Shown piece after piece: positions 23,501 through 48,331 of a DNA stretch of 64,000 bases. The stretch spans positions 18,339,424-18,403,423 of the forward strand of contig OX393555.1 of the NCBI GenBank assembly GCA_947650365.1, read 5' to 3'. The stretch comes from Chamaelirium japonicum (Eukaryota > Streptophyta > Magnoliopsida > Liliales > Melanthiaceae). The notes under the pieces were generated by a model. The model was not told the DNA's origin, ran no database searches, and worked only from the letters and a program-made list of their open reading frames with translations. The position numbers were made by a program, and so were the translations under genes. Position 1 is the stretch's first letter. The number at the start of each line of letters is the position of its first letter.

Positions 23501-23554
23501 CTTTTTGGAAGGAAGCTGTGTGTACTCGCTCGGTCGGCCGGACATCAGGCAAAG

Positions 23555-24115
23555 GGGGGCTCGGTCGGTATGTCATCAGAGAGGAGCAGCAACCCCCCCT
23601 CTCCTCTTGGGTTTGGTCGGCCGGTCACCAAAGGAGGGGGGACAACAGAGGCCCCCCCCTCTTTTGGGTTCGGTCGGCCAGTCACCAAAGGAGGGGGGAC
23701 AACAGCCCCCCCCCCTCTTTTGGGTTCGGTCGGTCGGTCACTAAAGGAGGGGGGACAACAGCCCCCCCCCTTTCTCCTGGGTTCGGTCGGCATGTAACCA
23801 AAGGGGGGAGGCAGCACCCCCCCCCCCTTTTGGGGTTCGATCGGCCGGTCACCAAAGGAGGGGGGACAACAGCCGCCCCTCCCCATCTCCTGGGTTCGGT
23901 CGGCATGTACCCAAAGGGGGGAGGCAGTACACCCCCCCCCTTTGGGCTTCGGTCGGCATGTAACCAAAGGGGGGAGGCAGCACACCCCCCCCTATTTTGG
24001 GCTTCGGTCGGCATGTAACCAAAGGGGGGAGGTAGCACACCCCCCCCCCTTTGGGCTTCGGTCGGCATGTAACCAAAGGGGGAGGCAGCACAACAGCCCC
24101 CCCCTCTCTACCTCG
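23555..24115 (+). repeat. U3 minisatellite of the 5' LTR, ten ~55-bp units
   Basis: Units share GGTCGGC, CCAAAGG(A)GGGGGG, a short spacer, then CCCCCC(T)CTTTTGG or CCCCCCTTTGG. The G-rich and C-rich halves can pair as a hairpin within each unit. The 3' LTR has nine units, so the array has changed length since insertion. Confidence 0.85.
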
Positions 24116-24298
24116 CACGACCGGTCAACAAAAAGCGGAAGATATCGGAGGCCACGCGGTGCTGACAATGCCCCGCGATTTCCGACCCAGAGTGACCAGG
24201 TGTCAACCGCGCGCCACGTCACCGCGGCGGTTGAGCTCATTGCGGGGACACATTACCCACCCGATTTTTGCGGAGCGTCGTAACCGTCACCCCGCCAC

Positions 24299-24306
24299 TA
24301 TAAAAG
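24299..24306 (+). promoter_or_regulatory. LTR TATA box, element B 5' LTR
   Basis: TATAAAAG, followed by GGGGACCTACCCCT as in element A. It lies about 180 bp downstream of the U3 array. Confidence 0.7.
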
Positions 24307-24773
24307 GGGACCTACCCCTACAGCGAAAAGGAGGAAGAATTCTGGAGGAGACGCTGTCCGTTTCGTCCCGGAATTTATGGAGCTGCAGAGATCGGTCGGT
24401 CTGCACCCAGAGGCTGTCTGCGGAGGTCGGTCGGTCAGCACCTAGAGGCTGTCTGCGGAGGTCGGTCGGTCGGCAGCCAGACACTGTTTGCAGCGACCTG
24501 TAGACAGACGCTGTCTGCAGTGGTCGGTAGTCTGAGTGAAATTGCAGAGGTCGGTAGTTTGGGAGACCGGTCCTCAGGGTATGTAATTGGGGTTAAGGTG
24601 AGAGATTGTAACCGAAAGAATAGTCTTCGTGCATTCTCGCCCCACCCGTGGTTTTTTCCCCTTCGTCGTTGAGAAGGGGTTTTCCACGTAATTCCCGGTC
24701 TGTTTTTATTTGGCTTGTTGGATTATGCTCGCCACTCGAACCGCCCGGTTCGACTAAAAACCCCCCACAATCT

Positions 24774-24790
24774 TGGCGCCGTCTGTGGGA
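24774..24790 (+). other. Primer binding site of element B
   Basis: TGGCGCCGTCTGTGGGA, four bases after the 5' LTR. A TGGCGCC start is typical of plant Gypsy elements primed by tRNA-Asp-like molecules. Confidence 0.75.
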
Positions 24791-24897
24791 CAGTCTTCGA
24801 GACTTCCTACTAATAGCTTTCGACTGTAGACCCGTGGGTGTCGACCAGTCTGAGGCTACCTGCAACCAGCAGTCCATGACCACACGGTTGAAGAACG

Positions 24898-26382
24898 ATG
24901 GCCGGTGGACCGTATCGTACCCGCTCGACGTCGCAGCTCCCGTCCGAAGCCGCACCACTCGGAGATGCTAGTGACGTCGGGCGTCTTGTTCAACCATCAG
25001 CGGACACAGAGCGCGCAGTCCCGCTGGTGAGTCCCATACTGGGGGTCGGGGACTCCAGTCAAGCTCCGATAGCAACCCTGGCTCCACTAACCGGGGGTCT
25101 GTCGAAAGCTTTTCTGGCCACAATGATGATGACCCAGCAAGCTCTCACCACCCAACTCCAAACGATGCAGCGCAACTACGAGGAGTTGCTTGACTTCGTG
25201 CGGGCCGCATCGACGGGTGGTCTACTCAACCAGGGCATGTTGGCCCAAGCGGGACAGAGCCTCCTCACTCAAGCTGCCCCACCAGTGCAAATACAGTCGC
25301 AACCAGTGCCTCAGGTGGAGGTCAGGGTTAATCGCTCGGTGGAGGTCCAAAGTGTGAATCCCGACGGGCGAGACTCGAGTAGCCCGGAGCCTGCGGAAAG
25401 AAACAAACACGCCCGAGCTGCGTCGGCACGCTCGGATGTCCGGTCCCGGCTCGGGGCACACCCCCGACAGCCGCCTGCCTCCAAGCATCACTCAAAGACG
25501 GACTCGGCACAAGTGCATCGCCCGAAGCGAGACGGAGAACTTCATCGTCAATCGAGTGATAGTCATCACACTCGGATGACGCCAGCCAGTCGGCAGCCAG
25601 CTCATACTACTGACCGGAGGAGCGTACACGAACGCATTCGGGTACATGCGTCGGAGCGACTCGGGGAGCGAGAGGAGATCCAGCGAGACCGATCGGGGGT
25701 CCGAGCTCCCGACCGGTTGGAGAAAGTCGCCATCCGAGGAGCCGCACGATCGCCGCTTGTCGAGAAGCTACTCCGGGAGCCATTCCCTTGAGGATGGAAT
25801 CCTCCACGCCTTCCCAAGTTTGACGGATCGAAAGACCCGGTGGAGCATGTACTGGCTTTCCGAGATGCTCTGGTCCCGCATGAGGATGATCATATCCTCT
25901 GCCGGACCTTCGCCAACAGCTTGTCGGGAACGCCCCTCGAATGGTTCCACAAGCTCAGGCCCTCGTCCATCTCCTCCTTCTCGGAGCTGAGCACGTGGTT
26001 CATCGACCAGTACCGATGCAATCATCGGGAGCTGAAGACTCTGGAGTCACTCTTCGGGATGAGTATGACCCAGAAGGAGATGCTCCGACAATTCTACCAT
26101 AGGTTCAGGTCCGAGTACCTGAGCTTGGCAGACGCAGACGGGCAGGATCGCATGGTGATCGCGGCCTTCAAGAACGCCATTCAGCCTGCCTCGTCAATGC
26201 GTCGCTCATCAAGCGAATCCCGGAGATGATCGACGAGCTGTCGCAGCGCGTTGAGAAGTACATCAAGATCAAAGACGCGGACCGCAAGAGGAACGCGATG
26301 GAAACCAGGGCCCCGCACCAGAGCTACGCCAAGCCAGCTGCCGTGAAGAACGTCAACAAGTAGCAGGGGGATGCGATACGGC
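24898..26382 (+). pseudogene. gag region of Tat element B, first part
   Basis: Opens with a frame starting MAGGPYRTRS. It is rich in Gln, Arg and Ser up to about 25790, followed by the conserved retrotransposon gag core near 25800-26230. The zinc-knuckle part lies beyond the 3.35-kb insert, near 29960-30010 (YCEYHQGQGH). Several breaks. Confidence 0.75.
26328..26382 (+). repeat. 55-bp direct repeat, left copy
   Basis: Identical except for one base to 29735-29789. The two copies bracket the 3.35-kb insert, and both are native element-B gag sequence. Confidence 0.9.
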
Positions 26383-29300
26383 TGTTGAGCGGCCAATTTG
26401 TGCTAATTATCCCATTATTCTCAAGCATATATCGTCAGTTTGCTACGTAAAACTTTCATAATACACGTAAACTGCATTAGTTTCTTTGCACCACGATATA
26501 GTAGACTTTCATACTAACCCAACGGTATATTGGTTCGCTCTCATACATATCATGCATGAAAGTTATACTGCCTGATAACCTAAATTATTCTTTTATCGAT
26601 AATCGTGTATTGGAATCTTATGGACTTCATTTCATGTGTGTCTTGCAGGAAATTGATCCGGTACTCGACGTAGTCAGCTCAAGGGTATCAAGACTAAGCA
26701 GTGGATAATCTCGCGGCAATCCAATGGAGGATGTACAGCTCGTTGGAGGCCTATTCTGAAGAAACGATAAAGAAAATGATACTTGCGATAATTCGGTCGA
26801 GAGGAGACTTCAACAAGCCGTTGCAGCGCATGACTCGAACTAGAAGGTGACTACATGAATGCAAATGAGCGATGAGGGTTTTGATGATGAGTTCAAATGA
26901 TGGTGACCAAAGCCGGCCTGTCGTTCTCTTCCTATCTTTCTTTCTCTTTCTTTTCGTTTCCTTTTCATCTTCTATTTCCGTCTTTAATTTAGTTGTTTTC
27001 ACTCTGCGCGCACCTTATTCCAACTACAAAGCCCATCGTAGCAGTGCATCACCTAGGTCCCTTAGCATATCGCACACGAATCCCTCTCGGACCCAACCTA
27101 CCCGGCCAGCACCACTTGATCCGCACCTCACCCCATCGAGATCCATCAGAGCTCCGGAACCCATCGTCCCTTCTATTCCATCCCAGCTCTCCTTTGCATC
27201 GCATGACACCCAAGTCCCCACTTGTGCACCCGATCACGACCACCCGATCCTCCATCTCTATATCTCCCTCTCTAAACAACTCAATTGCACCCAGACGGAC
27301 CTCAACTGATCGCAGCCGGTCCATTCCCTAACCGACCCGATCGCGAGCTCGAGATCCCATCCCCTAGTTTTATTCCGATCCAAACCTCATCGCAGCCGCC
27401 CATTGCACTCAACCCAGCTCCGGACTCCTCTCCCTCCAACCCGATCACAGCCGTCCCGGACCCTTTAAAACCCCTAGGGCTGTGCAAAAACCGACCCGAA
27501 CCGCATAACCGAACCGAAACCGACCAAAATTTAACCGAAATAACCGAACCGAACATCAAACCGAACCGAAAACAAACCGAACCGACAAAACCGATTAAAT
27601 CGGTTTCGGTTTCGGTTCCCGGGTATGAAACACCGAACCGAAACCGAAAAAACCGACCCGACTTCTTAAATCATAAACACAACGGCCATAATACTTTTGT
27701 TTCCAGTAAGTGCAAGTACGAAGTAATTATGTTAGATCTACAATGCTTCAAAAGAGTGAACGTCGGTTGATTTTGTTTTGAACTTTCATTTTGGCACTAT
27801 GTAAGAATATAATCATCCACTTATTTGTGATGAACTGACGATTAAGATTCAAGAGCCAAGGGTTCTAGCATAACTCATATTAACCGAAACCGAACCGAAA
27901 CTGAACCGAAAACCGATCACACCGAACCGACAAAAACCGACCATTTCGGTTTCGGTTTCGGTTTTGATTTTTCGAAAACCGAAAAAAAATAAAACCGACA
28001 AAACCGACACCGAAACCGACCGACAAAACCGATGCTCACCCCTAAAAACCCCTTGCATGCAGGACCAGCTGTAACCAGAACCCATCATCCGGTATTCTCT
28101 CCAAAATCCGGTAGTCTCTCTCTTTCCTTACTCTCTCCTCTCTCTTACCCGATCGAGACCCAAGTCACCCAACAGCCCAGCCGAAATTCTCTCATTCTCT
28201 CTCACCGGGATTCTCTCTCTTCTACACCGATCTTCTCTCTCTCTCTCTCTAGAACCCCATGCGAACGAGAACCCAGCAGTCAGCTCTCTCCCGTTCCCTA
28301 CGTCCTCTCCTCTCTTTCCTTAACCGCCCCCCCACCGAATCTCTATTTCTCTCTTTTCCGTTTCTTTCTCTTCTTTTTCTTTCTAAAACCGGACCTCCCA
28401 GCTGTAGCCCGAGCATCTCTCTCCTCCTTGTATTCCTCTCTAATTACCTCTCTTTCCTTATCTCTCTAACCGTCCAAATATCAGCCCCTACCCGATCGGC
28501 CTGAGATATGCACGATCCCACACCGAACGTATCTCTCTCTCCTCCCGTTTTTCTTTCTCTTTCCTTGATTCTCTCTCTCTAAAACCCAAAACCGGATCAC
28601 ACCGAACTTGCAGCCCTCTCTCCCGTTCTCTACGTTCTCTCTCTTTCCTTATTCTCTCCTCTCTCCTCCTGGTTTTTCTCTCTCTAAAACCAGCCGAACT
28701 TCTCTCTATCCTATATAGAGGGGGGCAAGGACGAACCAAGGGAGGTTGCCATCTACAACCCGCATCCCTCACCACCTTAAACCTTCCACCATCTTCCATC
28801 TTCATCACCACCGAAGCTTAGGACGACCAAGCCGGCGGCCATTACACTACTGTACCATCATCATCTTCACGTACCATTTCCGAGCCACGTCCACCGCTCT
28901 TGAAGCCGTCGCCGTCATCGTCGGGTTCGTCATCTTCAAAGAAGCATCCGCCATCAACGCTCACATGGCCATGCGAGGCTAACCACCCTATTCTAAGACC
29001 TAGATGAAGCCCTGTAGTCAGATCTAAACTCTGTTTTTATGTGTTATTTCCATATTTCCGTTCGTTCAATGAAATAATGTGATCTTATTTATCTCATGAA
29101 AGCTTGATAGGAATTGCATGCAATAAGTCTGATTTATGCTCCGTTATTATTAGGGTTTTACAGAGGTCGATTTCATAGTTTTATTCCTCGTTATTACGGA
29201 AAGTTTTACGGGAAATTATTACATAGTCTTGGCTTTTGTTATCACTACGAATTTTACAGAGGATTACTTTATCTTATTCCTATGAAGCGAGAAAGATCGC

Positions 29301-29734
29301 TACATTAGTTCACTCTAATTGTGCTTCTTATTGAATACCTTCCGCGGGGATAGATTGACTTCGAATCTCCGTGACAATCCTGGAAATCATATAAAAGTAT
29401 AGTTTACATCGCTACTTGTGCGGATTCTAGGGCTTAGAATATCACATCTATATCTGACCTTCCACACTGCATCACATTACCTTAATTAGTTAATCTGCAT
29501 GCTTTAATCTTGATTAGTTTACTTTTTCACAATCTCATAAAACCAAATCAACAACATTGCTCATTAAGTAACTTAGGTAGATAGATTAATAACCTTAGAT
29601 TAGATAGTTCCCTCATTAGCAATCCCTATGGGATCGACCTCGTAATACGTACCGCTCCTACAAAGCGATTCGTGCACTTGCGAGTTATAATTTAGATCAA
29701 ATTAACCCCTCAATTTAGGATTAGTTTAGATCTT
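26383..29734 (+). mobile_element. 3.35-kb insert in gag of element B, LTR-like
   Basis: Begins TGTTGAGCGG. It contains a long pyrimidine-rich section (28110-28700), a TATATAGAGG box near 28711-28720, and a right end with GTGCACTTGCGAGT and CCCTATGGGATCGACCTCGT. Those words are typical of 3' ends of long LTRs in Athila/Tat-type elements. No gag or pol is present, so it may be a solo long LTR or part of a large non-coding element. Its flanks are duplicated over 55 bp, far more than the 5 bp an integrase leaves. Confidence 0.55.
27475..28044. mobile_element. hAT-like non-autonomous element with perfect 8-bp TSD
   Basis: The ends TAGGGCTGTGC and GCTCACCCCTA are hAT-like. An exact AAAACCCC duplication lies at 27467-27474 and 28045-28052. 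The interior is dominated by ACCGAAACCG and its reverse CGGTTTCGGT in opposite halves, making a long imperfect palindrome. No transposase. Confidence 0.9.
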
Positions 29735-29789
29735 GCCAAGCCAGCTGCCGTAAAGAACGTCAACAAGTAGCAGGGGGATGCGATACGGC
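29735..29789 (+). repeat. 55-bp direct repeat, right copy
   Basis: Right partner of 26328-26382, after which element B's gag sequence resumes without loss. Confidence 0.9.
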
Positions 29790-32700
29790 ACGAGGCGAAG
29801 CGGCAAAGGCAAGACAGGCCAGCGAGGCCGCAGTGGAACAGAGAGTTCACAGTACTGAACGCCCCCATAGATCAGATTCTGGAAGCTATCAAGGGCGAAC
29901 CATACTTCAAGTGGGCGCAATCGCTTGAACCCGAAGAGAGGGGAGCCAGAGATGCATCAAGGTACTGCGAGTACCACCAGGGCCAAGGTCACACTACCCT
30001 GCAGTGTCGGGCTCTCAAACATCATATCGAGGATCTCATTGAGGCCGGCCATATTGGCTGCTTCATTGACCTCCCTCAACGTAAGGAGACTAAGGCTGTA
30101 GGGGAAGTCCAGCGAGGGGCGACGACACAACGCTTACCGGGTCCTCCGCCAGAAAGGCACCAGCTCCGAGAGGTAGATGCAGTCTACAGGTACCATGGCC
30201 CGGTACCATCATCAAATGCCGTCGACCGACAGGTGAGACGAATTGAACAAGCAAGGCAAGTCCGCCATGTGGTACTCGACCCTGTCATCCGTTCCGAGCC
30301 AAGAGTGGAAGCTGCAGTACAGTTTTCGGCGGCTGATCTGGTCGGAATAGAGAGGCCTCACAACCATCCCCTGGTCATACGGCTCCAGATAGCCAATTGC
30401 CTAGTGAAGAGAATTCTGGTCGACGCCGGAAGTTTGGTAGACGTGCTCTTCCTCAGCGCCTTCGACGCCATACAGCTAGATCGCGGACAGATGACCGAGT
30501 CATCGTCGACGGTAACGGGCTTCACGGGGGAGGCTGCAAGGGTGGTTGGTGAGATCACCCTTCCGATCACCACAGGGCATCTCACTAATCTTACCCGGTT
30601 CATTGTGATCGAAGCTCACTCGGCGTACAATATCATCCTTGGAAGGCCGGATGCGGTCCCCTCGTCGGCCCACCAGGTAGTGAAGTTTTCGACCGACAAG
30701 GGCGTGATGAGCATTCGAGGTGACCAGTCCTCGGCAACCAAGTGCGAGCTCAGTGCCATCCATCTGAAGGCGACATGCCAAATCGAGGGAGGAGAATCAG
30801 GTGAAGGCGGCACTGAGTTGGGCATCCTCAACTTCTGGACTGCGAAGCAGAGTCAAGAAGCACCAATGCTCCAGCACCACGCCCTATCAAGAGCAGGAGC
30901 GCGAGGAGGCCAAGCATCTAAGAAGACCGACCTGTCAGTTGAACTTAAAGAACTGACAGTGTCGAGGGACCTGCTGAAGACCAACCTGTCAGCTGAACAT
31001 AAAGAGCTGACAGTGTCGGGGGACTTGCTGAAGACCGACATGACAGCTGAACGTAAAGAGCTGACAGTGTCGGGGGACCTACAGAAGACCGACCATTCAG
31101 TTGAACGTAAAGAACTGAATGCGTCGAGGAGCTTGAAGAAGGCCGGTCAGTTAGCTGAACTTAAAGAGCTAACTGGTCCGAGCGACCCGATGGAGACTGA
31201 CCTACCAGCTGAAGGTAAAGAGCTGAGCAGGATGACGCACCCTCAGAAGACCGACCGACCGGTTGAATCTAAAGAACCGGACGAGTTGGAGAGCCCGAAC
31301 GCGGAGTGGGAGGAGTCGCCTGCCGTCGAGCCAATTCTGCCCGTGGACTTAGGAGAAGCGGGTCATCCGAGGATAACTTTTCTCGGGTCGCGGCTGCCGA
31401 AGCATCATGCCGAAGCTATGACGACATTTGTCAAGGCAAACCTGGACGTGTTCGCATGGTCAGTCGAAGATATACCAGGTATCCACCCCGATGTAGCCTG
31501 TCATTACCTCAACATTCGAGAAGGAGCTGCACCTGTACGCCAGAAGCCCCGGTCGCTAGCACCGGAAAAAGCAGCAACTGTCAACACGGAGGTAGAGAAG
31601 CTGCTACGAGCGGGCATCATCAGAGAGGCTCGGTACCCGAAGTGGATCGCTAACGTGGTCGCCGTCCCCAAGAAGTCCGGAGCCATTCGGGTCTGCATCG
31701 ATTTCACAAATCTCAACCAGGCATGCCCAAAGGATAGCTACCCGCTACCGCGCATCGATACCCTGGTGGATTCCACGGCGGGGCACGAGAGGCTCTCGTT
31801 CATGGACGGGTACTCGGGCTATTACCAGATCCCCATGAATCCGGAGGACCAAGAGCACACGACCTTCGTCACGGGTCGAGGGCTCTACTGCTACAAGATG
31901 ATGCCATTCGGATTGAAGAACGCGGGGGTGACGTACCAAAGGCTGGTGAACAAGATGTTCGTCGACCAAATCGGAAGGAACGTGGAGGTCTACGTCGACG
32001 ACTTACTTGTGAAGAGTCAGGCTGAGGATACGCATATGCAAGACCTGGAGGAAACCTTCGCAACCTTGCGGAGGTACAACATAAAGTTGAACCCGGCCAA
32101 GTGCGCCTTCGGCGTGACGTCGGGAAAATTCCTGGGATACTTGGTCACCCGACGGGGGATCGAAGCCAACCCGGAGCAGATCCGTGCCTTGGAGGAGATG
32201 CTATCGCCAAAGTCACGAAAGGAAGTCCAGAAGCTGACCGGACGGATCAACGCCATTAATCGCTTCATTTCCAAGTCCTCAGACCGGTGTCGGCCCCTGT
32301 TCGAGAGGCTGAGTAAGCTTGCACCTTTTGACTTGGACCAACACTGTGAAGAAGCATTTCAGGAGCTGAAGACGTATCTTGGACGACCCCCTATCTTGAC
32401 AGCCCCCCAGCTAGGTGCAACGCTGGGGGTGTATCTTTCGGTGTCAGAGGCAGCAATCAACGCTGTACTGATATGCGAATGTGAAGGAGCGGAGAGGCCT
32501 GTCTACTACGTCAGCCGCATCATGACGTCAGCTGAAACTCGGTACGCGCGGATTGAACAAGTAGCCCTGGCATTAGTGTACGTCTCAAAGAGGCTTCGCC
32601 CGTACTTCGTCGCTCACCCCATCGAGGTCATCACTGAGCACCCCCTGAAGGAAGTACTGGATAACTCTACTCGGGTAGGTCGGCTGAGCAAGTGGGCTGC

Positions 32701-32896
32701 AGAGCTGCAAGAGTTTGGTCCTCGTTACGTGCCTCGGAAAGCAGTCAAGGGCCAAGCACTTGCGGACTTCCTCAGTGATTTCCCGGTGAAAGACACTGCA
32801 CCGGTGCCGGAGACGTTAGAAGACCTGTCGGTAGCTGCCGGTCGACCCGTGGGAGTCGGTGCGGTAGCAGGACAGGAAGGCGAAGGAAAAGGCTAG
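29790..32896 (+). pseudogene. Element B gag end, protease, reverse transcriptase, RNase H
   Basis: The longest open stretch of the window lies here. Recognisable parts are the zinc knuckle (about 29960-30010), the aspartic protease core (VDAGS near 30420, an Ala where most families have Ser or Thr), a repeat-rich linker (30932-31309), the reverse transcriptase (PFGLKNAG and YVDDLLVKS near 31905-32020) and RNase H (about 32400-32770). It is the best preserved part of the element, but it belongs to a broken copy. Confidence 0.85.
30932..31309 (+). repeat. 54-bp in-frame array of seven hairpin units in pol
   Basis: Left arms start at 30932, 30986, 31040, 31094, 31148, 31202 and 31256, an exact 54-bp (18-codon) period. 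Each unit has a 9-nt left arm, a 10-nt loop of consensus GAANNTAAAG, and a 9-nt right arm. Pairing by unit is 9, 9, 7, 9, 9, 5 and 8 of 9. Arm sequences differ among units: CTGTCAGTT, CTGTCAGCT, ATGACAGCT, CATTCAGTT, CAGTTAGCT, CTACCAGCT and CGACCGGTT. The right arms change to match. The protein repeat has a conserved E-x-K-E core. It sits between protease and reverse transcriptase. Element A lacks this region. Confidence 0.9.
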
Positions 32897-33330
32897 AGAT
32901 TGTTCGTGGATGGCTCGTCGTGCGCAGTCGGGAGTGGTGTGGGGGTAGTCCTAGTAACCCCCGACCACACGAAGCTCAAAAAATCAGTGCGGCTACTTTT
33001 CCCGACGACGAACAACGAAGCGGAGTACGAGGCGATGCTGACAGGACTGGAGATGGCGACATCACTGGGGGTGACCAGCCTACAGGTCTACGGTGACTCC
33101 CAACTGGTAATCAATCAGATTATCGGTAGGTACGAAGCCCGCGACGCAAGGATGCAAGCTTACCTAAGCTAGCCCGGGAGTTGATCGCCAAGTTCGAAGA
33201 CATAAGCTTCCACCAGTTCCCCAGAGCGGAAAACAAGCAGGCGGATGCCCTTGCTAATCTAGCATCGGTACTCGGAGAAGACAGAGAGAAGCGAGTCTTC
33301 ATTGTGGTGCAAGCTGACCCATGAACAGTC
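32897..33330 (+). pseudogene. Archaeal-type second RNase H of element B
   Basis: Begins FVDGSS, with NNEAEYEA near 33015 and YGDSQLVI near 33095. This is the D-E-D layout of archaeal-like RNase H. A second RNase H after the retroviral-type one is the hallmark of the Tat lineage. Element A has the homologous part at about 14575-15090. Confidence 0.85.
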
Positions 33331-33584
33331 GGCCCCGCAGAAGATAGTTGCCTGACGAGGAGGACACAAGCCATTGAGGCGGCCCATACTATTGCGGTCG
33401 GAGCGGATTGGATAGGCAACATGAAGAAGTACCTACTTGATGGGATATTATCGGAGGACGTCGATGAGGCCTGAAGAACCAAGGCGCACGCTCCAAGATA
33501 CACCCTCATCGACGACGAGCTGTACAAGCGTTCGTTTGGCGGACCGTACCTCAAGTTCCTCACGAAGGAACAAGCGGCAGAAAT

Positions 33585-34650
33585 CATGAAGGAGGTACAT
33601 GAAGGGGGGTGCGGGAACCATTCCGGAGGAAGAGCCCTGGCGCGGAAGATAAAGCTGCAGGGCTACTACTGGCCCACCATGGAAGCAGATGCGGGGGGAT
33701 ATATGAAAAGGTGCTTGCAATGTCAAAAGCATGCTCCCTCCATACATCAACAAGCAGAAGAGCTACACCCAGTATCCAGCCCTTGGCCCTTCCAACAGTG
33801 GGGGTTGGATATTTATGCCCCTTCCCGACGTCGCCCAACCGGAGGAAGTTCCTCCTCGTCGCCACCGACTACTTCACCAAGTGGGTGGAGGCAATCCCGT
33901 TGCTGAAGATCGGGGAAGTTCAAGTGGGAAAGTTCCTATGGAGCAGCATCATCTGTCGATTCGGACTACCGCGGGCTTTTGTTGCAGACAACGGGCGATA
34001 ATTCGATGCGGAGTCAATCAGGAAGTTCTGCGCCAGCAACAACATCAAGCTGTTCTTCTCTACACCGCGGTACCCTCAGAGCAACGAGCAAGCAGAGTCG
34101 ACGAACCGCGCCATTCTGGACATACTGAAGAAAAAACTGGAGCAGAAGAAGGGTTTGTGGGAAGAAGCTTTACCCGGAGTTCTATGGGCCTACCGGACGA
34201 CGCCGAAGCAACCGACGAGAGAGTCCCCGTTCAGCCTTACCTATGGCTCCGAAGCAGTCCTGCCAACTGAAACCTTGGTCCCAACACAGCGATCAGTCGT
34301 AGCTGCCGACCTAGAGCGGAACGACGAACTCCTGCTGGATGGCCTAGACCTGCTGGAAGAGAAGAGGGAAAGAGCGAGAGCGCGCCTAGCCAATTATCAT
34401 CAGGCCATCAAAAGGGCGTATGACCGCAAAGTTAGAAGGCGGGTATTCAAACAAGGAGACTTGGTCATGCGGAAAGTCTTTGACAATACCAAGGAGCTGG
34501 GAAGTGGCAAGCTGGGAGCTACCTGGGAAGGACCATACATCATCGATGGTATGGGAAAGAATGGAGCCTACCTCCTGAAGACTCAAGACGGCGATGCACT
34601 AGCAAGGCCATTTAATGCCACCAATCTGCACAAGTTCTACCAGGGTAGCT
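33585..34650 (+). pseudogene. Integrase of element B
   Basis: The zinc-binding part (HEGGCGNHSG, then CLQCQKHAP near 33715-33735) is followed by the catalytic core (GLPRAFVADNG near 33965) and a C-terminal tail ending near NLHKFYQGS at about 34645. A few breaks. Confidence 0.8.
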
Positions 34651-34763
34651 AAATGGGAGATGCTTGTAATCGTTCTGTAGTTCTGAATCTATTCAATAAA
34701 GATGCATTTGCTCAGCGTTCTCGTTCACGTGTGAGAATAAAGGGTTAACCGAGGCAACCTAAA

Positions 34764-35343
34764 CCAAGTGGTATATAACACTCCGAGCGAGTTCTACCAC
34801 TTGGCCGATCGGTCGACAGGACCCTGTGAAGGGCGAGACCGGCCGGTGAACACCTGGGAAGATCGACCAACAGGCCCCGCCGGGGTACGACCGGTTGACC
34901 AACCTAAACCAAGTGGTACATAACACTCCGAGCGAGTTCTACCACTTGGCCGACCGGTCGATAGGACCCTGTGAAGGGCGAGACCGGCCGGTGAACACCT
35001 GGGAAGATCGGTCGACAGGCCCCGTCGGGGTACGACCGATTGACCAACCTAAACCAAGTGATACATAACACTCCGAGCGAGTCCTACCACTTGGCCGATC
35101 GGTCGACAGGACCCTGTGAAGGGCGAGACCGGCCGGTGAACACCTAGGAAGATCGGTCGACAGGCCCCACCGGGGTATGACCAGTTAACCAACCTAAACC
35201 AAGTGGTATATAACACTCCGAGCGAGTCCTACCACTTGGCCGACCGGTCGACAGGACCCTGTGAAGGGCGAGACCGGCCGGTGAACACTTGGAAAAATCG
35301 ATCAACAGAACCCGCGGGGGAACGACCGATTGACCAACGCAAG
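34764..35343 (+). repeat. Four exact 145-bp units after pol in element B
   Basis: Units begin at 34764, 34909, 35054 and 35199. Each begins CCAAGTGGTA (CCAAGTGATA in unit 3) and has TACCACTTGG 21 bases after the first arm, a 10-bp stem. Further pairing words (GACCGGCCGG, GGCCCCGCCGGGG) follow in each unit. It lies in the 3' untranslated part and is homologous to 16452-17010 in element A. Confidence 0.9.
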
Positions 35344-35392
35344 CAAGGCAGGGTATATCACCCACTGCTAATATAAAGGCCAGATTTTGGTC

Positions 35393-35548
35393 GCGCGTCG
35401 TCGACGTGTAGTCACGCGCGTCAACGTGTAGTTACGCGCGTCGACGTATAGTTACGCATGTCGTCGACGTGCAGTTACGCGCGTCGGCGTGTAGTTACGC
35501 ATGTCGTCGGCGTGTAGTTATGCGCGTCGTCGACGTGCAGTCAAAATA
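35393..35548 (+). repeat. Array of seven 20-23-bp units
   Basis: Units alternate GCGCGTCGTCGACGTGTAGT and GCATGTCGTCGGCGTGTAG forms, several centred on the palindrome GTCGAC. It separates the 145-bp array from the antisense gene's 3' end. Confidence 0.8.
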
Positions 35549-35694
35549 TGAGAACCAGATTTCAGCGACACAACGTCGATGTGTACTTAAGATACAGAAT
35601 CGATGAGAAAGAAGGCAATCATGGCATTCAGATGAAACATTAAGAGGTTCCAATACAAACGAGAGTTGCTTTATTACATCAAAACATCAAGAGG

Positions 35695-37280
35695 TCAGGC
35701 GTCTCCCCCAGCTTTCCACTGTCCCGACGGGAGCTTGCTGTGCAGCTTCGCGACCTTCTTACGCCATGCTGCCGCCTGTTCCGCAAGAAGCGACTTGCAC
35801 TCCGCGGTGTAGTCAGCATGCTGCCGATCAAGCGCAGCCTTATGCACTGCTTCGGCCTGGTCAAGGGAGGCCTTCAATGCGGCGATTTCGGCCTCATGAG
35901 CGGCTTGGGCGGCCTCGGCATCTACGCGCTGCCTTCTGATCGAAGCCGCCTGCGACCTGAACTTTTCCCACCACAGCCCGTTATTTTCCACCCGAGCGGA
36001 ATCCAATGCTTCTTGAAGCTCGAAGGGGTCAGAAGCGTTCTCCTACGTGACTTCGAGCTGAGCCTGGACTGCGGTAAGCTCTTTGGCGTGAACCCGTTGA
36101 GCTTCCGCCAGCTGAGCGTGTAGCTCTCTCGACTCCTGCCGAGCAGCCCGAAGGGAGGCCTTAAGCCGTGTCATCCTATGAGCACCCCCCTCGACAATTC
36201 GACAGGCCACCTGACAAAGGAGGAAACGATATTACCACAGAGTTAAGGGGAAAAGTTACTACTACAATCAACTCGTTAACGACTCAGACTTACCTCATGA
36301 AAGTCGTCGAGCTGACGCTCCCAGCCAGGACTACCCACACCAGTATCATCTTCCTCCCCTTGACGAGCAGAGAGCCTGGGGGAGCGGCGGTGAGACGTAG
36401 ATTCAGTAGCCCCGAGGGAAGAACGAGGAGGTAGCCCGGCGACGCCCCCAGAAGCAGAGGAGGAAGGCGAAGGCATGAAGTCTCGTGCCTCCTCGCGATC
36501 GAGCATTCTAGCGGCAGGGGCAGTAGGTGGTGTAACGGTAGGGGCAGCAGGTGGTGCAACAGTAGGTGCAGCAGGAGAACCGCGGGGTGAAGCTCGCCCA
36601 CGCGACCCAGCCGAGCCAGACGGCATGGCTCGCTCGCCTCGCCCGAGGGAGGGAGAGAGACTATAACCGGAAGACATCTCCGATATATTCTGCTATCTCC
36701 ACATACTGCCTACCCGTCGACGGCACGTCCTCTGACCAGTCTTCGGGGAGGGAGTAAAGGTCGTCGACAGCAGTACGTCGCATGGAGCGAGCGGGAGGAG
36801 CGCGTCCAGCATCATCGTCGCTGGAAGGCTCGTTCAGCAAAACTCGCCTCCTTGACTTCCCCGTCGGCGCAGCTACGTTGCGCGCAGCCGGTTGGCTGCA
36901 TTCGCCTACAGCTGTAGTCGACCTTGCGCGCCGCCTGAAGATCACGCAGAGTTTAGATGTAGCGGTGTTTGGGTTGAAGCGTCTGACGGAGCTGATGTAC
37001 CTGTCAGGGAGCTCAGAAGAGTAAGTAGATGGCTCTTCTTCCCTACCGGACGCAGCAGGCTGTTTGCCTTTCTTTGGAGTGGAGCTGTAGGACCTGACGA
37101 CCGGTAGCTTCGGAAATAGCTACCGCCAGTCGTCGTCATTGTTCGTTACCCGCTTAATGAGTTCGTCAAGCTCCTCCTCAACAGCCTCAGGGCACTGAAG
37201 CTGCCTAGAGGGGTAGTAGTCCTCGATGGTCACGACGAGTTGGGAGACGTGACCGGGGATGTTGAAGCGACCCCTCCAGG
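35695..37280 (-). pseudogene. Antisense accessory gene of element B, C-terminal part
   Basis: Reverse-strand coding region in the 3' internal part. From the Copia D insertion leftwards it encodes a basic/serine-rich segment (near 36661-36945), a Pro/Ala-rich low-complexity segment (near 36276-36677) and an Ala/Glu/Gln-rich coiled coil (near 35695-36006). Element A has the same order of parts. Its N-terminal part is at 47329-48050, on the far side of Copia D. Broken in several places. Confidence 0.7.
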
Positions 37281-39607
37281 TGTTAGAATTGGTGAGGTCT
37301 ACAGCTCGTAAAACCTATAGTTTAGCTATGTATGGTTGATAGTATAGGAATGCATATTGGTACGTACCTTAGTACGTGTTCTGATTACAGAACAGAGAGT
37401 CATGGCTATATGGTAATCCACTTGAGTGGGAGACTCAAGGGACTGGTCCCATGTAACCTAAATACGTTCGCAGCTCTGATAAGGGTTGGTCGCCCTATCA
37501 GGATAAGCTATTGGGATGACAGAGCGTGGGTTTCTCCACCACGGTCATTACCAGGCACAGTGTCTGTAGCCGAACGGAACCAACACGGTGCACAGATCGG
37601 TGAGCAGACACCGGTGCACTAAACTATATTTCTGCTTAGGGTAAAATGGTTCTAAACCCTGAGGAACCATGTCTGGTGGACTAACCAGTTTGTGGTGCTT
37701 TGGCGCACCAATGTGTGAGGATCCAGATATAGTGATCCAAAACCACGGTGTACTGGGTTACCCGGCTGGCGTTGCATTAGCATGTCACTCCTGCAGGCTA
37801 TCCACACCCCTAACGGGAGGTGCGTTCCTTGGTCTGACCTATGTCGTATTAAACCCTGGCCAGGTGGTCATCAGTTGGACTGGTGACAGATCTGGTTGCT
37901 CGAAAGAGTAATCGGAGATACGATGTATGTGGTCAACCTGGAAGGAACCGAGTCATATGAGCACTCGAGTCTGACGGTATTCTCCACCGCTCGAGTTGCA
38001 TTATGGCACCAAGTGGAGGGACAACGGGTTTACCATACTAAGCGGAGAGCAGGGGTATGAGGGAGAACATAGTAAGTCCGGGGGAATTGGAGTACAGCCT
38101 GCGTCGCACTCTGGGTGGCTACGCAGGTTAACTCGGACTCAGAGGATCGATGGTACACTCGGGTAGTGTGTCGATCGAGTTTGAGTTGGAAGCCATGAAC
38201 CCTGGTCCCTGAAGGTTCCACCTTATCGATATTATGTACGGTTCTTATACCATCTCATCGAAACAAAGAACACAGTTAGAGGAAGCGAGAAGTCCAAGCC
38301 TATGCTCCGTGAGTGCTTCGCACTAGTGCACGGTAGATGCGTTGCTACGTGTGTGCACTAAAGGAAAACCCTAGGTTAGTGCAGAGACGCATGTAGCAAT
38401 TCTTTGTCATAAGTGAACTTTGTCATATGGGTGCAATGCACCGGGACATGTTGCAAGTTGACTAGTTGACTTCACTAGGGGTACCCTACGGGAACATCAG
38501 AGAATAGTAAAATCACTGGTGCACTTCACTTATGTGTGCCTTGCAAAGTCTCGTACACGAGGAACGGCCAACTATTGACATAAGGGCGTTTTGGTCATAC
38601 CATGCGTCACTATGTACTAAGGGGGCCGGCCCTAAGTGTTGAGAGACTGGTCAAGGCTGGCCCTATTGGTTTCAGGAGGTTGTTGCCTTCGATGAAAGGG
38701 CCGGTCATGAGGCGCAGAAAACGGGCTGGTTTTGACCGTTTTCGAAAACAAAGATAAGATAGAGATAAAAGAAGAGATATATAGGGAGAGGTTTGAATCA
38801 GTCAATCCTATCCGCTAGGCTTATCCATAAGGATAAGGCCGACCCTATATAAGGCATAGGGAGAGAGGGGGGGACAAAATTATGGAGCCAAGCAAGCCCT
38901 AGGGCAGGCCCATGCATGGGGAAACCCTAGCCGCCCCCCTCTCCTCTCTTCGCATCTCCTCTCTCGTCTCTTTCTCCCTCGCTTGCGCCATTAAATAGCG
39001 ACTCGTCTTCCTCGCGTGGTGTTTCGTAGAAGGAGAAGGCTCGTCGTATGGAGGCACTCAGAGATCCATCGACGAGGTGCCGTGCATCGTGTGAGATCGG
39101 GTGAACTAGAAGGCGTCTCCCGCAACCTTTTGCTGTCCAGAATCTGTACAGAAAATCAATGTTGTTTCTGTGATTCCGGGAGCTACGGAAGTCCAAACGA
39201 TATGCATTTTGTTGCAAAAGTTGCGTCTCGAAGTTGGCTACCTGCAGTCCAAATTTCATCCCAATCGGAGTTCGGAGCATAAAGTTATGGCCGTCGCACC
39301 GAAGCTATGTCAAGCAGATCCGAGCCCGTCTCCATCGACAAAGAAGAAATTTGTCACGGTGAAAGAATCCGCACACAGGTATGATCTCTAACAAGTAGAT
39401 CTAACATAATTAGAACATGCATGCATGCTAGATTGTTCTTTCGCGTTAGATTGTCGTTAGGGGTTCGCGTAGATGCCATGCTAGATTCATACACGCATAT
39501 GTAGATCGTTTCGATGAAAATTTTGATATGTAACGCACACCGCTCACGGTCCTCGGACCTTCACTTTGCTTCCGCTGCGGGCCTCTACCATGGATTTGTT
39601 TCCAACA
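37281..39607 (+). repeat. 5' LTR of Copia D
   Basis: TGTTAGAATTGG to TTTCCAACA, 2327 bp, unusually long for Copia. TATA box TATATAAG at 38846-38853. Confidence 0.9.
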
Positions 39608-42600
39608 ATTGGTATCAGAGCTGCGCAAGTGGTGTACGTTTCATGTTTTTTTATGAAACCATCATGTGCGCGCATGAATAGTATGTGCCGCCATCGGGGT
39701 TCTACGAGTAGATCATGCATAGTATATTTTGTATGTTCTATGAATTATTCTTGCAGGGCGCTGCTTCTAAAATTTATTCTGGATATGTGATTGCTTGCTA
39801 CCGGGGGTCGGACCCCGTGTTAGCAAATATGTCTGGATGTTTTGTCTTCTGTGTGTGGATAGATTTTAGAGCTATAGTCGGGCAAGTGGTGGAAGTTGAC
39901 CACCCTTGATTCCCAGGCTTTTTGCTAGGTTTGTTTTCCTTTTCGTTCTAGGAAATTGTGTACGAGCGAGCACTTGCTTGAAGCGTACTAGAGCTTTTTC
40001 GGTTACAGATTGAAGAGGAGGACTTGCCGTAGAGATCCACCACCGGAAGGACGAGCGGAACCTTGGAGGACGATGGCGATCTGACGAAGCGTACACGATG
40101 ACGGCAAAGGGCAAAAGCGTTAGGAGATCGTATACAGAGGCTTGCACCGGATCGAGGAGCCTTGCGAAGGAGACAGAGAGCTTGCGCTGTGCCAGTCAGG
40201 TTCAGGGGTCGGACCCTGAACTTGATTCAGTTGTGTGCTTGTTTCTTTCAGTAGTTCTTTATATTTCTGTAGAGAACCCCGATGCGATAATTTAATTATC
40301 TATGTTAGAGGGATGCCCTTTCCCCTCGGGTCCTACCGATCTTATTAGGATAGGATTCCACTAGTGACACCTATTATTTAATTGACCCTTGATGATAGCA
40401 TGAATTCCTCAAATTTGGTTATGCCCCCATTAGGTCAATACCCGATTAGTCGGGTGTGCCTATTTGGCAAGCATCGAAACCTAGAATGAGTTGGAATTCT
40501 ACTATGACATCATTCGTCAAATTTATAAGCAAGACGCCATGGTAGTGGAAGACCTTTCCTGTCAGTCTGACCTTAGGCTAGGCTCCAGGGCATTAGCGTA
40601 ATAGCCAAGTTTGCAAAGCATCAATGTTCTTGGGATATGTAATGTGACCCTTGAGTGGAGAAATCCACTCGAGGCAGGGACTATGATATTCCGAGATCGA
40701 TTAATGCTTCGCAAAAGGCTTGAAATGCTAGTGGGAGCACGGTATGACCAGGGTCTAGTGTATAGGTTGTCGTGACCTTAGTGTACACTCATACTTGCAT
40801 TAAATAACCCTCAATTATAATAAGGGATGTGTAAGAGGACTCGTCGAGATCCTCTGGCCTCCACAACCAACTACTTTGTGTTTGGGTGGAAGGGCGTAGC
40901 TCGACACCCCCTAGGGTGAGGGTTATGTTTTTCCATGCCAGATAACTTAGCGGTCTCCTTCAGGATATGGCGGTTACGGGGCCAGGAGAGAAGGGCTTTT
41001 TATCCCACCCTAGTGGGGGCCGCATGAACTCCCGTGCCGTAATTGCTTAGTCTTGTGGGTAAGCATCCGAAGTGGATGTGAGGCATCTGTTGCTTGCACA
41101 ATGAGGATCACGTGGCACTGGCCAAAAGATAACCATGGTCCATCAAAGCCCTTAGTTGGCAGATTTGGACTGGGTCAAGGAAAGGCCCGTGTAAGCGGAT
41201 TGACGCTGCATGATGCCCCCTAGGGCAGGTGTAGTCGATTTCGAGATCTTACATACATGGTTAATTAATCCATAAATGTGTCTTCGCTGTGAGGGTAGCG
41301 TTGGCATTTGGATATAATTAGCTTATTTTCAAAATCCATAAAATAAGTTATTTTGTATTCGTTTTCATTCAACCATATAGTTCCCCTATCTGTTATCCCA
41401 TAAGAGAACCAGTTATCGGGTCTCTAACTACGTAGAGCGGAAGCGCTATCTTTAGCTTATGCATAGGGTAGTAAAAACATACATTGGCATGTAATCTAAG
41501 TATCCCTGTATTAGACCTAATGGGTCCAGATATCACTAGGGCACTAACTAGGGCATATGAAGACTGGCGAGAGTCTAAGGAGATGTGCAAGTGCTATATT
41601 ATAGCAGACTTGCGGACAACTCTTTAGAAGCGAGTCAGAGATATGCCGGGTCTTCTCTAATTAAGTCTTACTTGCATTAGATGTCTGAAAGGCGAAGTCA
41701 GTCGACTCATCGCTTTTCCACTAAGATACTTGTCGGTACCGAGATGTCTGAGGGTATGCTTGTTCGGGAACACATCTTTGAGTTCCAGATCGAACTAGAT
41801 TCCAAAGACATAGTACCAGATGACGAGGTGGTGGAAGACGTCTGTCTTGCATCCTTGTCTGGAACCTTCGAAGGCGTTATCAGAGACTTTAGCTTTAACA
41901 AGTTAGAGATAATAAACGCAGAACTTCTAAGGAGATTTCTAAGAGACAAAGGATGGGATCAAGATTAAAGGCAAAGCCTTTAGTGCTTAACCTAGGCCTT
42001 CTTTAGAAGAACCTAAGGAAGTAACTTATCAGAGATCGAAAACTATTATAGTGCAGAAACTGGTGTGGACTCCTAAGTCTGGTAACGCTAAAGACGGAAG
42101 TGTTTCTGTTTTGGCAAGAATAGGGGGTATTTGAAGATTGAGTATGGCCGCAGGATGTTAGGAGTAAAGTCGCTATCTAGTAGCAGCTCTTATGCTTCTT
42201 GGAATGTAGACTTCGGGTCTACAAAGATTCAAGAAAAGCAGAAGGCTACTTTATAGTGACGTAATCCTAACATAGGTACTAATGCCATAAGCCGCTGCGG
42301 AAGCTGTTAGGTATGATTGTCTTAGCTTTCCGAAATACGGATTTTGTTTTTTAGAGATATAGTTCTGTTTCCTTCTTGGTAAATGAAGTTTTTAGTTTTA
42401 GACAGCACCGTGAGTGTGTATCTTAAACTGAAAAGATAGCTTCATTACTAGAGGAATAGATCAGAATAATCTCTTTGTATTTAATCCTAATTCGGAAATA
42501 GATTTCATGACAGCTGTAGCGTCTAATTGAAATTCATCTAAATCCTTCGGAGAAGCTATCCCATTTTTGACCCCTCTGATTTAGATATTCTGTCTTAAAT

Positions 42601-43386
42601 AAATTCAAAGGTAACAGAAGGCCGAGTTTCTGTTCACAGAATCATCGGAGATCCTTCTAACCTATGAGTATAATCTGGAAGGCAGAATAACTAAAAGGGC
42701 CACGAAGGTATGTGAGTTAGTTAGTTTTGACATCTATGGTTCCAAGAGCGTCCAGACGATAGGAGTCTCTTCGATTTAATCGAGGGAACGAGAACCTATC
42801 GGACGAGTTCCATAGGATCCTGAGGGAGCATGGGATTATCTCCCAGTTAATTGCTCCAAGGATGACACGTCAGGATAAAGTCTCCGAGAGGAAGGAATCG
42901 GACTCTGTTTGACATGGTCCGTAGTATGATGAACATCGCCAAGTGTACTACCCACCTTTGGTGGGGTTGTACCTTAAAACAATAGCTTATATATGAAACT
43001 ATCTCTCATTTACCTCAGTGCCTCAGACCTATAGAGAGCTATGGTTTAAGCGAAAGCTGACACTATAGTGTCTCGAGATATAGGGCTATCCTGCACTTGT
43101 GCAAAAGGACAAGAGGGATGAGATGGAGGTGTAGTTCCAGGTATATCTATTTGTAGGTTACCCTTAGAAGGCATAAGGTGGATTGTTTTATGATCTTGAG
43201 GTTAGGAAGGTAATCATTTCTACGAATACCATCTACCTAGACCAGGATTATATTATAGACCATAAGTTTATCAGTAAGGTAGTTCTGGGTGAACTACTGG
43301 GTACTGGTAGAGAGTGCGCATCTGAAAATGTAGTGGGAGTAGATGATACAGAAACTAGTATACCAGGTACTGTAGAAACGATTCAC

Positions 43387-43650
43387 TTTGTACCACCACC
43401 ACCTCATCGTTGTGGGAGCATCCGAGCTCCTGAAAGATACTATGGAGAAACTTCGATAGTTAATCTAGAGTTTCAGGAGGATGATCCCTAGAGCTACGAA
43501 GAAGTAGTGGGAGCTTCCTTTGTACCACCACCACCTCATCGTTGTGGGACCATCAGAGCTCCTGAAAGATACTATGGAGAAACTTCGATAGTTAATCCAG
43601 AGTTTCAGGAGGATGATCCCTAGAGCTACAAAAAAGTAGTGGGAGCTTCC
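43387..43650 (+). repeat. 132-bp tandem duplication inside Copia D
   Basis: Units 43387-43518 and 43519-43650 differ at only a few bases. Each runs from TTTGTACCACCACCACC to GTGGGAGCTTCC. The length is a multiple of three. Confidence 0.9.
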
Positions 43651-45001
43651 GACAGCTCTGACTGACAAAAGACCATGGAGGCAAATTTGCATCAATGTCC
43701 CTTGGAACAGTCTTGACACTTATAGCATTATCACCCTTCAGGGTGTAGAAGGTGTATAAGAAGAGCACCCAATTAAGACTTAAGTAGCTAGATTAGTTAC
43801 CAAAGGAGAAGGGATTGACTATGTCAAAACCATCTCACTAGTAGCTATGCCTAAGTCTATTTCGGATCCTCTTAATCCATCACTGCCCATTATAGTTGGG
43901 AGATCTGGTTGATGGATGTCAAGACAGTTATTCCCTAACGGGAATTTGGAAAGGACATATGGATGATGTAGCCCCAAGATTTGTGTCAGTAGGTTAGGAA
44001 GATTTGGAATGCAAGTTGCAACGATCCATTTATGGACTGATGCAAGCATTCAGGTTGGAATATCTATTTTGATCAAGGGAATCCGCTAACACGGATTTGA
44101 TCAGAATGAGGATAAACCAAGTTGGTACAAGAAAAGTGAAATAGCTACAAGGGTGTATTTAGTATTTTACGTTAACGATATTCTACTGATTGAAAATGAC
44201 GTAAGAATATTGTTTACGGTAAAGGTTTATAGTCATCACAATTCGATGTGAAAGACCCTGGTGAGGCGAGTTATGTTCTGGGAATCAAGGTAACTCGAGA
44301 TTACCAGAGCAAGATTCTCTTGCTGTCACAGGCTACGCATGAAGATAAGATTCTAGCCAGATTCAGTTTACGAGGCTAGATATCTATTGCGCAGCAGGAA
44401 TGATGGGTCGGTTTTAGTCGAACCCGGGTCCAGATCTCTGGACCGATGTGAAGGATATACTCAGGAATCCTCATTAAGTAAGGATTATGAGTTAGCTTGC
44501 ACTTCACAAGTCCTGATATCGATTGGACGCACAAGGTCTGACTTTGGTGTCAGATGTGTGTTCCAGAGAATCGATTTCAGGGATTATTTTTATCTTGGGA
44601 TTAGAAGAGGTAGTTGGTAGAGTGTGAAGCAAGAGTGAATCACAGACTCTACCACAGAGGCTTAGCACATTGTTGCGTGCAAGGTAGAATATCAGGTGGT
44701 AAGGCTTAGGAAGTTGTTAGAGAACTTGGGACGCATACCAGAGGCTCAGTTATTTGTTGTTACAACAGAAGAGCGGTAAGCAAGGTCCAAGGAGACTAGG
44801 CACTGGCGTGAGGGGAAACCCATCAAGTACAAACTCCACTTGATCTGACAGTTATAGGAGGAAATGCAAGTAGCGGTACTGAGGTGGAATCTACAGACAA
44901 TGTTGCCAATTCCTTTAGGGAATTCCTGCAAAGGCTTTTGGGCAGCATATAGAAGCTACAGAGCTCAACACCGTTATTCCTTGTTAGACCTAGTGGGAGA
45001 T

Positions 45002-47323: not shown

Positions 47324-47328
47324 CCAGG

Positions 47329-48050
47329 GTCCCCTGACCACGATGGGGCACTCTTTCCAACTCCTCACCGAGTCAGATAAACCCCCAATGAGAGGGTGAC
47401 TGCCTGCGCGCGCCTGCAGGCTGAAGTAGGAGAAGACACTGTCAGGCATTGTCTTGTAATCTTTGATGAAGTACTTTTTCAGAAGGTACGCTACGCAGAG
47501 CTGCTGCCCCGCCAACACTTCTAGTGCCTCCATACAGCAGAGGATCCTCCAGCCGTTGCCAGCTATCTGGCCTGGAGACACGTTCATACGTTCCAGTAGG
47601 CGACCAGAGAAGCTTGCCAGGGGAAGCCGCAGGCCGCAACAAAGCTGGCCGAGCATGACGACAGTATGGTCGTCGTCTGACGGGTCCAAAGGACCGGTAG
47701 CAAAGGAGAGCGAAATCATATCTGGAATACCGTACGCTACCCGGACCTCCTCCATCAGAGGGAACTTGTTTGTCATTGAGAACCAGGTGAAAGACATCTT
47801 CGACACGCAGGTCCTCGACATATATCCAAGCGAACCGACACGCAGGCCCTCGAGGTGTATCCAAGCGAACCGACACGCAGGTCCTCGGCGTGTATCCAAG
47901 CGAACCAACACGCAGGCCCTCAGCGTGTATCCAAGCGAACCAACTTGCAGGTCCTCGGTGTGTAGTCAAGCGAAACTTCTCCCAAATGAACCTTCAGCCA
48001 CAGAGGAGGAATTTGAAGCAGAGGAAAGAAATGAACCATCTGGGTCCTAT
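47329..48050 (-). pseudogene. Antisense accessory gene of element B, N-terminal part
   Basis: Reverse-strand frame with a block PGQIAGNGWRIL and flanking Leu-rich helices near 47440-47640. It resembles the plant domain annotated as putative gypsy-type transposon (Pfam Transposase_28). Element A has LGQVAGNEWRIL at the matching place (near 53490). The 5' end overlaps a 35-bp tandem array. A TATA box lies just upstream (48055-48048, minus). Its role is unknown. The maize Tat element Grande has a nuclear protein gene in the same position and orientation. Confidence 0.7.
47804..47978 (-). repeat. Five 35-bp units at the 5' end of the antisense gene
   Basis: CACGCAG starts at 47804, 47839, 47874 and 47909, with CTTGCAG at 47944, so the period is exactly 35 bp. 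Because 35 is not a multiple of three, each pass through the repeat is read in a new frame. Confidence 0.9.
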
Positions 48051-48055
48051 TTATA
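48048..48055 (-). promoter_or_regulatory. TATA box of the antisense gene in element B
   Basis: On the minus strand TATAAATA within GTCTATAAATAGGACC, followed by a leader into the antisense frame. This suggests a promoter separate from the LTR, as reported for Grande. Confidence 0.55.
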
Positions 48056-48331
48056 GACAAAGTTGGAGCTGGATGGGTTCGAATTTCGAGGAGGCGAGGT
48101 GGCAGCTCCTGGTGACGCCATGTGGCGAAAATCAGAAAAAACCCAGACATCTGTTTTTGAGTTGCAACAGCCCCGAACTAAGGCGGGCACGCAAACCGAG
48201 GCATGCACACAAACCGGTGCGGGCGCGCAAGGCGATTCTAGTGCGCAAGTCGAGGATGACACGTAGAATGAGGCTGCATGCAAATCGAGGCGAAGTGATC
48301 CTGACCGGACGGGACCGAAGACCGCCCGGTC

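Follow-up and report, generated by a model that had tools for sequence, protein, structure and literature searches.

An in-frame tandem array of covarying stem-loops within pol of a plant Tat retrotransposon, with arms and loop that look selected, perhaps as RNA

The array and its closest described counterparts

Repeated palindromes within coding sequence have been described in a few settings. PARCELs are in-frame palindromic tandem coding repeats of microbes, with 25-residue units and an HMM of their own, partly tied to mobile elements and mostly recognised also by DUF285 and TIGR02167 (PMC2996958). Two further reports describe tandem arrays as frequent downstream of pol in Ogre/Retand retrotransposons (PMC11963269, PMC7004042). 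Here we describe a tandem array in the pol frame of a Tat-type long terminal repeat (LTR) retrotransposon; it has seven 54-bp units, and each carries a stem-loop. The array lies in a 64-kb stretch of the Chamaelirium japonicum genome (the window), which contains nested LTR elements.

As in PARCELs, tandem in-frame coding repeats are combined here with dyad-symmetric DNA; the array differs from PARCELs in lying inside the pol of a plant retrotransposon (PMC2996958). PARCELs are the nearest known kind, and the array is not a member: its unit has 18 residues and finds no Pfam or NCBIfam match at threshold. The element has a tandem array downstream of pol as well (the 145-bp array of Table 1). Ogre/Retand arrays sit between pol and the 3′ LTR, whereas the 54-bp array stands in frame within pol and its arms covary (PMC11963269, PMC7004042). 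The coding palindromes of nematomorph mitochondria are likewise inverted repeats retained in translated genes, but they are long, reaching 284 bp, and strong selection acts on their amino-acid sequence (PMC6649704). Hairpins maintained by template switching share with the array multi-pair compensatory changes in perfect stems; the mechanism does not explain the slow third-position change in the loop of this array (PMC8794818). In the literature searched by titles and abstract starts, with subscription papers mostly outside reach, we found no report of a comparable array lying between protease and reverse transcriptase (RT), nor of a tandem array inside pol with covarying arms, a weak negative.

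The array is located between the protease region and RT, and across it the coding frame contains no stop codons, compared with 12 and 15 in the other two forward frames. An initial annotation of this DNA had proposed seven in-frame units with an exact 54-bp period, each a 9-10-9 inverted repeat with a conserved loop. Period and units were borne out, with the units at 30921-31298, and the loop GAANNTAAAG is present in all seven. Units 1, 2, 4 and 5 pair perfectly with four different arm pairs, as described, and unit 7 pairs at 8/9; the inverted repeats of unit 3 (7/9) and unit 6 (5/9) are imperfect. Past a one-base bulge below this upper stem, a lower stem adds four further pairs. When folded singly, six of the seven units reached z-scores of −3.4 or lower, and the degraded unit 6 reached −1.4.

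The spacer between protease and RT measures 329 residues, or 203 without the array, and 79-203 residues in 81 relatives (166 in 46 of them). The array is thus an addition to the spacer, since the spacers of relatives reach only its array-less length. These relatives came from 131 proteins: the best 120 of 5,413 found with the RT region, and 11 found at an expect value (E) of up to 1 with a 327-residue piece; 50 were dropped for want of an RT anchor (21) or a protease anchor (29). Self-match of the spacer at any period reached at best 10/30 positions in relatives and 24/30 in this element, and none of the 131 proteins contained three E-x-KEL motifs. The array region is overlapped by 36 BLAST matches; identity there was 21-29% among the matches listed (20, plus the best two each of P0121-P0131). 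A protein search with the array region returned nothing at E 0.001 among 2,631 candidates. Outside the host genome, viral and genome contigs yielded no confirmed relative, a DNA pattern matching once in each of six viral contigs, and a plasmid search gave three records at 31-43% that covered only the RT part.

Arm covariation within and between copies

In the window the true pairing of arms (56/63) is the maximum among 5,040 reassignments of right arms and is reached by four of them including the true one; when reassignment was kept inside the two unit types, 4/144 reached it. Departures from the unit majority in the upper stem were two-sided in 12 cells, ten of them Watson-Crick, and one-sided in five. 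The compensating changes that had been proposed for units 4, 5 and 7 are real: changes private to these units match across the arms with a product probability of 6e-8 under random placement, calculated over the four units with changes in both arms. The proposed rule at arm position 8, by which GTT on the left accompanies GAA on the right and GCT accompanies GAG, also holds in 7/7 units, and the GTT/GCT alternation tracks a three-unit period (Tandem Repeats Finder period 162). A tree simulation of the window produced at least ten compensated cells in 0/20,000 runs at scales 0.5 to 1, and with a frequency of 0.00015 at scale 1.5. Covariation of the lower stem in the window alone was not significant (840/5,040). 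The comparison array of 145-bp units, which are less diverged, showed covariation in 5/41 pairs (104/500 shuffles reach this) and seven two-sided cells (18/500).

An array-similarity search of the host genome gave 42 matches from 40 scored of 769 first-look candidates. We fetched 39 pieces and used 33 as young copies, six being dropped for indels in the array. The units are nearly fixed in this set and new arm changes represent mostly one-sided decay: among pairs with a Watson-Crick state in the window, one-sided change affected 41 upper-stem cells, giving G-U in 19 and a broken pair in 22. In units 4, 5 and 7 each compensated pair is intact in 30-33 of the 33 copies, which dates these pairs to before the family spread. 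One unit 3 site is unpaired in the window and paired in 32/33 copies, and as unit 3 pairs at 8/9 in 29/33 others, one of its mismatches is private to the window copy. In unit 1, column pair 18/31 occurs in two states (18 and 15 copies) with a constant loop and no one-sided intermediate. These states are fully linked to column 30921, and columns 30921, 30939 and 30952 are fully linked across all 33 copies. Longer arrays were present in 3/39 copies (11 units in L031, about ten in L051, eight in L040); the extra units are of types 1-3, and units 4-7 occur once each where detected. Whole units near the 5′ end of the array multiply. A contrast of flank and array in the young copies was set aside, as the copies had been chosen by array similarity and the flank alignments had artefacts.

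Older copies were collected with the RT of a second Tat copy in the window, by scoring 40 of 1,840 candidates (the others at 84-89% identity) and fetching 30 sister loci, the second Tat copy included. Diverged arrays are present in twelve of these, and the chains used contain 77 units. Their upper stems are Watson-Crick in 535/693 pairs, compared with 435.9 (standard deviation (sd) 10.3, maximum 473) when right arms were shuffled within each copy, a value reached by 0/5,000 shuffles; covariation in other copies, the check asked for initially, is thus present in the sister copies, the young copies showing mostly the decay described above. The lower stem follows the same trend (225/308 versus 202.9; 1/5,000). 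Leaving out column pair 18/31 and shuffling inside unit type, the upper stem retained 461 pairs versus 407.7 (0/5,000). Disjoint nearest-neighbour contrasts, picked on non-stem columns, contained 30 two-sided upper-stem changes versus 17.2 (2/5,000), under a null that leaves differences in divergence between contrasts uncontrolled; in 14 of these changes the pair was Watson-Crick in both units, against 1-5 in slid controls. For all 84 units (77 sister and seven window units) there were 144 two-sided cells versus 58.2 after shuffling (0/500) and 13-47 in slid controls.

Loss of covariation once shared ancestry of units is modelled had been named as a refuting outcome. Covariation survived: an independent-site simulation on a tree of the sister and window units gave 31 two-sided Watson-Crick cells (sd 14, maximum 94) versus 119 observed (0/1,000), and extra pair types were reached by 1/1,000. 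This null is neither R-scape nor codon-preserving, the codon-preserving test being that of the window alone.

Absence of the array from other copies had been named as a finding that would speak against kept hairpins. No array was detected in 18/30 sister loci, yet 17 of these 18 also lack the left linker, so the absences do not represent independent loss of the array alone. L062 retains part of each linker but has no array between the two, and L056 and L075 have the right linker only. In the second Tat copy of the window the counterpart of 30024-31512, which covers protease and array, is missing at a sharp junction (13193-13195). The sequence left of that junction adjoins RT in 0/17 other array-less sister loci tested, and L062 has it further upstream.

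Loop, peptide and competing explanations

The fixed letters of the loop are kept in 67-77 of the 77 sister units, while the loop NN varies. Third codon positions in the loop changed in 4/126 contrast cells, compared with 33/210 at linker third positions (P 1.5e-4), 71/462 at linker columns in which A or T is commonest (P 5e-5) and 32/252 at steadier A/T linker columns (P 0.001). The Lys codon of the loop ends in A in 77/77 sister units; the rest of the window frame uses AAG 35 times and AAA six times. The left-linker end and the start of the first unit agree in 11/12 sister arrays and chains step by 53-57. These 11 arrays therefore look completely covered, with few units likely to have escaped detection; L058 is the exception, as damaged sequence ahead of its first unit was omitted.

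Whether the encoded peptide matters, the repeats forming a helical linker from protease to RT and the palindrome being a by-product, was judged from the coding side. The best of five AlphaFold2 single-sequence models (mean of the other four, 58-68) predicts one helix over residues 6-93, with ten-residue blocks at a predicted local distance difference test score of 81-96 over residues 11-90. This would leave room for a peptide role, and E-x-K-E is retained in the repeat and the coding frame is open. However, the units show no sign of protein constraint: median nonsynonymous divergence (dN) is 0.448 and synonymous divergence (dS) 0.441 among window units. For reference, RT differs between the two Tat copies of the window by 0.352 at third, 0.126 at first and 0.091 at second positions, which is ordinary protein constraint. 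The amphipathic moment is reached by 157/1,000 shuffles and shows no clear excess, the 81 relatives have shorter spacers, and none of 200 synonymous-codon shuffles folds as stably, the lowest z-scores along the frame falling inside the array. These results uphold the initial view that protein selection does not explain the pattern, and make the peptide reading improbable. To E 1, a Pfam scan of the array peptide found only TamB, under its cutoff, and NCBIfam gave no match; these libraries should include the DUF285 and TIGR02167 models. Rfam gave two matches in 30500-31700, both under the gathering score.

If duplication and conversion spread palindromic unit types, shared ancestry could account for covariation that is merely apparent. 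The multiplication of 5′-end units of types 1-3, the three-unit period of the GTT/GCT alternation and the fully linked columns of the young copies all fit such spread, which had been raised at the outset as a rival and does explain part of the pattern. The remainder is not explained, as shown by shuffles inside unit type and copy (0/5,000) and the tree-based simulation (0/1,000). Shared ancestry as the sole cause is rejected, and we consider it highly improbable that this reading is the right one. Two causes remain, which can act together: selection on the folded nucleic acid, and copying of one arm onto the other by template switching. In the latter, the growing strand would turn back on itself at a near-palindrome, in reverse transcription or replication, and mutation would keep the arms complementary without any function. 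This mechanism has been published for other systems and fits multi-pair changes (PMC8794818, PMC8604942). In the window, ten of the 12 two-sided departures are Watson-Crick, G-U is absent from all 63 upper-stem pairs, which are either Watson-Crick or broken, and 3/7 derived pair types have no G-U route. Other arrays are also often strongly folded, with z-scores of −2.4 or lower in 5/9 arrays of the two Tat elements compared with 1/5 others, by our own grouping. Template switching would explain the stems but not the loops, whose third positions it gives no reason to change slowly; in addition, sister units contain G-U in 52/693 upper-stem pairs, and the 145-bp array of the same elements covaries little, which is less telling given its lower divergence. 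We regard template switching as unlikely, though a real contender. As sister copies show G-U pairs, their lack in the window was dropped as a test between selection and template switching. The dyad might instead act as DNA, by cruciform extrusion or as a binding site for a dimeric protein. The lack of G-U in the upper stems of the window and the absence of a clear preference for G-U over A-C agree with this, but the arm sequences differ widely, which is unexpected under sequence-specific dimer binding, and sister lower stems have an excess of G-U (44 versus 25 A-C, P 0.03), leaving a DNA role distinctly improbable.

We favour an account in which a 54-bp unit, whose 13-bp bulged stem closes a 10-nt loop, would have been multiplied in frame within the variable protease-RT linker, and in which selection on the nucleic acid would have preserved the hairpins for as long as the lineage was active, the stem through its pairing and the loop through its sequence. 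We infer selection as the cause and RNA, most likely in the full-length transcript, as the form. The preference for RNA over DNA is due to a slight excess of G-U over A-C in sister units (96 versus 69 cells, P 0.04, cells non-independent), with 33 versus 35 in young copies. As for use, the units would most likely offer repeated sites to a protein of the element, for instance Gag, in packaging or condensation, and binding of Gag at the hairpins is a guess. To the account as a whole we give an even chance. The initial proposal is thus partly supported: its core, a row of kept nucleic-acid hairpins, holds up in the 12 older arrays, whose arms covary also against the tree-based null.

Several observations weigh against this account. 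The two-sided changes of the 33 young copies are confined to 19 cells, all at column pair 18/31 (18 in unit 1, one in unit 2), and unit 6 stands at 5/9 in 31 of these copies. Only 6/77 sister units are fully paired, though these copies are old. The slid controls +2 and +3 of the contrast test were also mildly rich in two-sided change (56 and 154 of 5,000), and across the 84 units neither the 11 pairs changed on both sides (147/500 shuffles) nor the 26 further pair types (170/500) stand out. Unguided RNAalifold on these units recovers 8/13 pairs at −0.81 kcal/mol. The G-U excess is slight, and detection of sister units by a loop criterion biases them toward conserved loops.

To our knowledge, little is known of how plant LTR retrotransposons mark their genomic RNA, and a repeated covarying stem-loop with a near-constant loop in pol would be a concrete candidate. 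In its specific form, a row of RNA stem-loops of variable number with a near-constant GAANNTAAAG loop inside pol might serve as a putative multivalent site for the element's own Gag or another protein in packaging or reverse transcription, a suggestion that we make tentatively and hold to be doubtful. If template switching is the cause, the array would be a natural case of covariation without function and a warning for covariation-based RNA discovery.

The host element and neighbouring features

The element that carries the array (Table 1) is disrupted by frame changes and other insertions. Right of the LTR tandem array its two LTRs differ at 26 positions in 660 bp, 25 of which are transitions. 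The protease region was assigned by alignment with relatives, 29771-30922 having no Pfam match. RVT_3 matched 32897-33169 at 6.1e-11 and 33130-33321 with 20.2 bits against a cutoff of 21.6. This additional RNase H (aRH) sits after RNase H and before integrase, the criterion for Ogre/Retand within Tat (PMC6317226), and we therefore place the element in the Ogre/Retand part of the Tat lineage. The 145-bp array between pol and the 3′ LTR is a frequent, not universal, trait of this group. As for the antisense open reading frame (ORF) of Retand, Transposase_28 (PF04195) scored 19.9 bits on antisense 47315-47965, below its cutoff of 26.2, and gave nothing in four other antisense pieces of the element. 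The piece that follows the integrase pieces, 34002-34649, has no Pfam match.

Table 1. Coordinates of the Tat-type element, the 54-bp array and associated features in the window
Feature	Position	Strand	Basis or remarks
Tat-type LTR element carrying the array	23512..49549	+	LTR pair; 5-bp repeat GAAGC on either flank; interrupted by other insertions
5′ LTR	23517..24769	+	contains 57-bp tandem array 23593-24109; fold of 23647-23760 z −4.9
gag piece	25792..26229	+	Pfam Retrotrans_gag
Open frame: gag end, protease region, linker with array, RT, RNase H	29771..32896	+	ORF and Pfam
Array, seven in-frame 54-bp units, stem-loop each (unit 6 degraded)	30921..31298	+	period and arm pairing
Unit 1 upper stem-loop	30932..30959	+	9/9
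Unit 2 upper stem-loop	30986..31013	+	9/9
Unit 3 upper stem-loop	31040..31067	+	7/9 (8/9 in 29/33 other young copies)
Unit 4 upper stem-loop	31094..31121	+	9/9, two compensated pairs
Unit 5 upper stem-loop	31148..31175	+	9/9, two compensated pairs
Unit 6 upper stem-loop	31202..31229	+	5/9 (same in 31/33 other young copies)
Unit 7 upper stem-loop	31256..31283	+	8/9, three compensated pairs
RT and RNase H (span of Pfam matches)	31664..32716	+	RVT_1, RT_RNaseH_2, RT_RNaseH
Second RNase H (aRH), two frames, between RNase H and integrase	32897..33321	+	RVT_3
Integrase pieces, two frames	33475..34001	+	Integrase_H2C2; rve under cutoff
145-bp tandem array downstream of pol, comparison array, weak covariation	34755..35338	+	tandem repeat finding
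3′ LTR	48344..49544	+	LTR pair comparison

The sequence into which the element inserted (23320-23511) resembles the end of a Copia-type pol; a 56-residue piece of it has no Pfam match. A 55-bp direct duplication (26328-26382 and 29735-29789, one difference) borders a 3.3-kb insertion in gag; this is long for an ordinary target-site duplication. The LTR tandem arrays (23593-24109 and 48384-48880) consist of two unit types, and inspection by eye suggests matches between their C-rich and G-rich arms on either side of unit borders. Downstream of pol, a 20/43-bp array at 35392-35541 has very strong predicted folding (z −5.6). The inner nested element contains a 132-bp tandem duplication at 43386-43650, the first copy of which has z −3.0. 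Elsewhere in the window, 3215-4300 carries the dinucleotide repeats TC, TA, AT, CA, AT, TG and GA with inverted self-matches.
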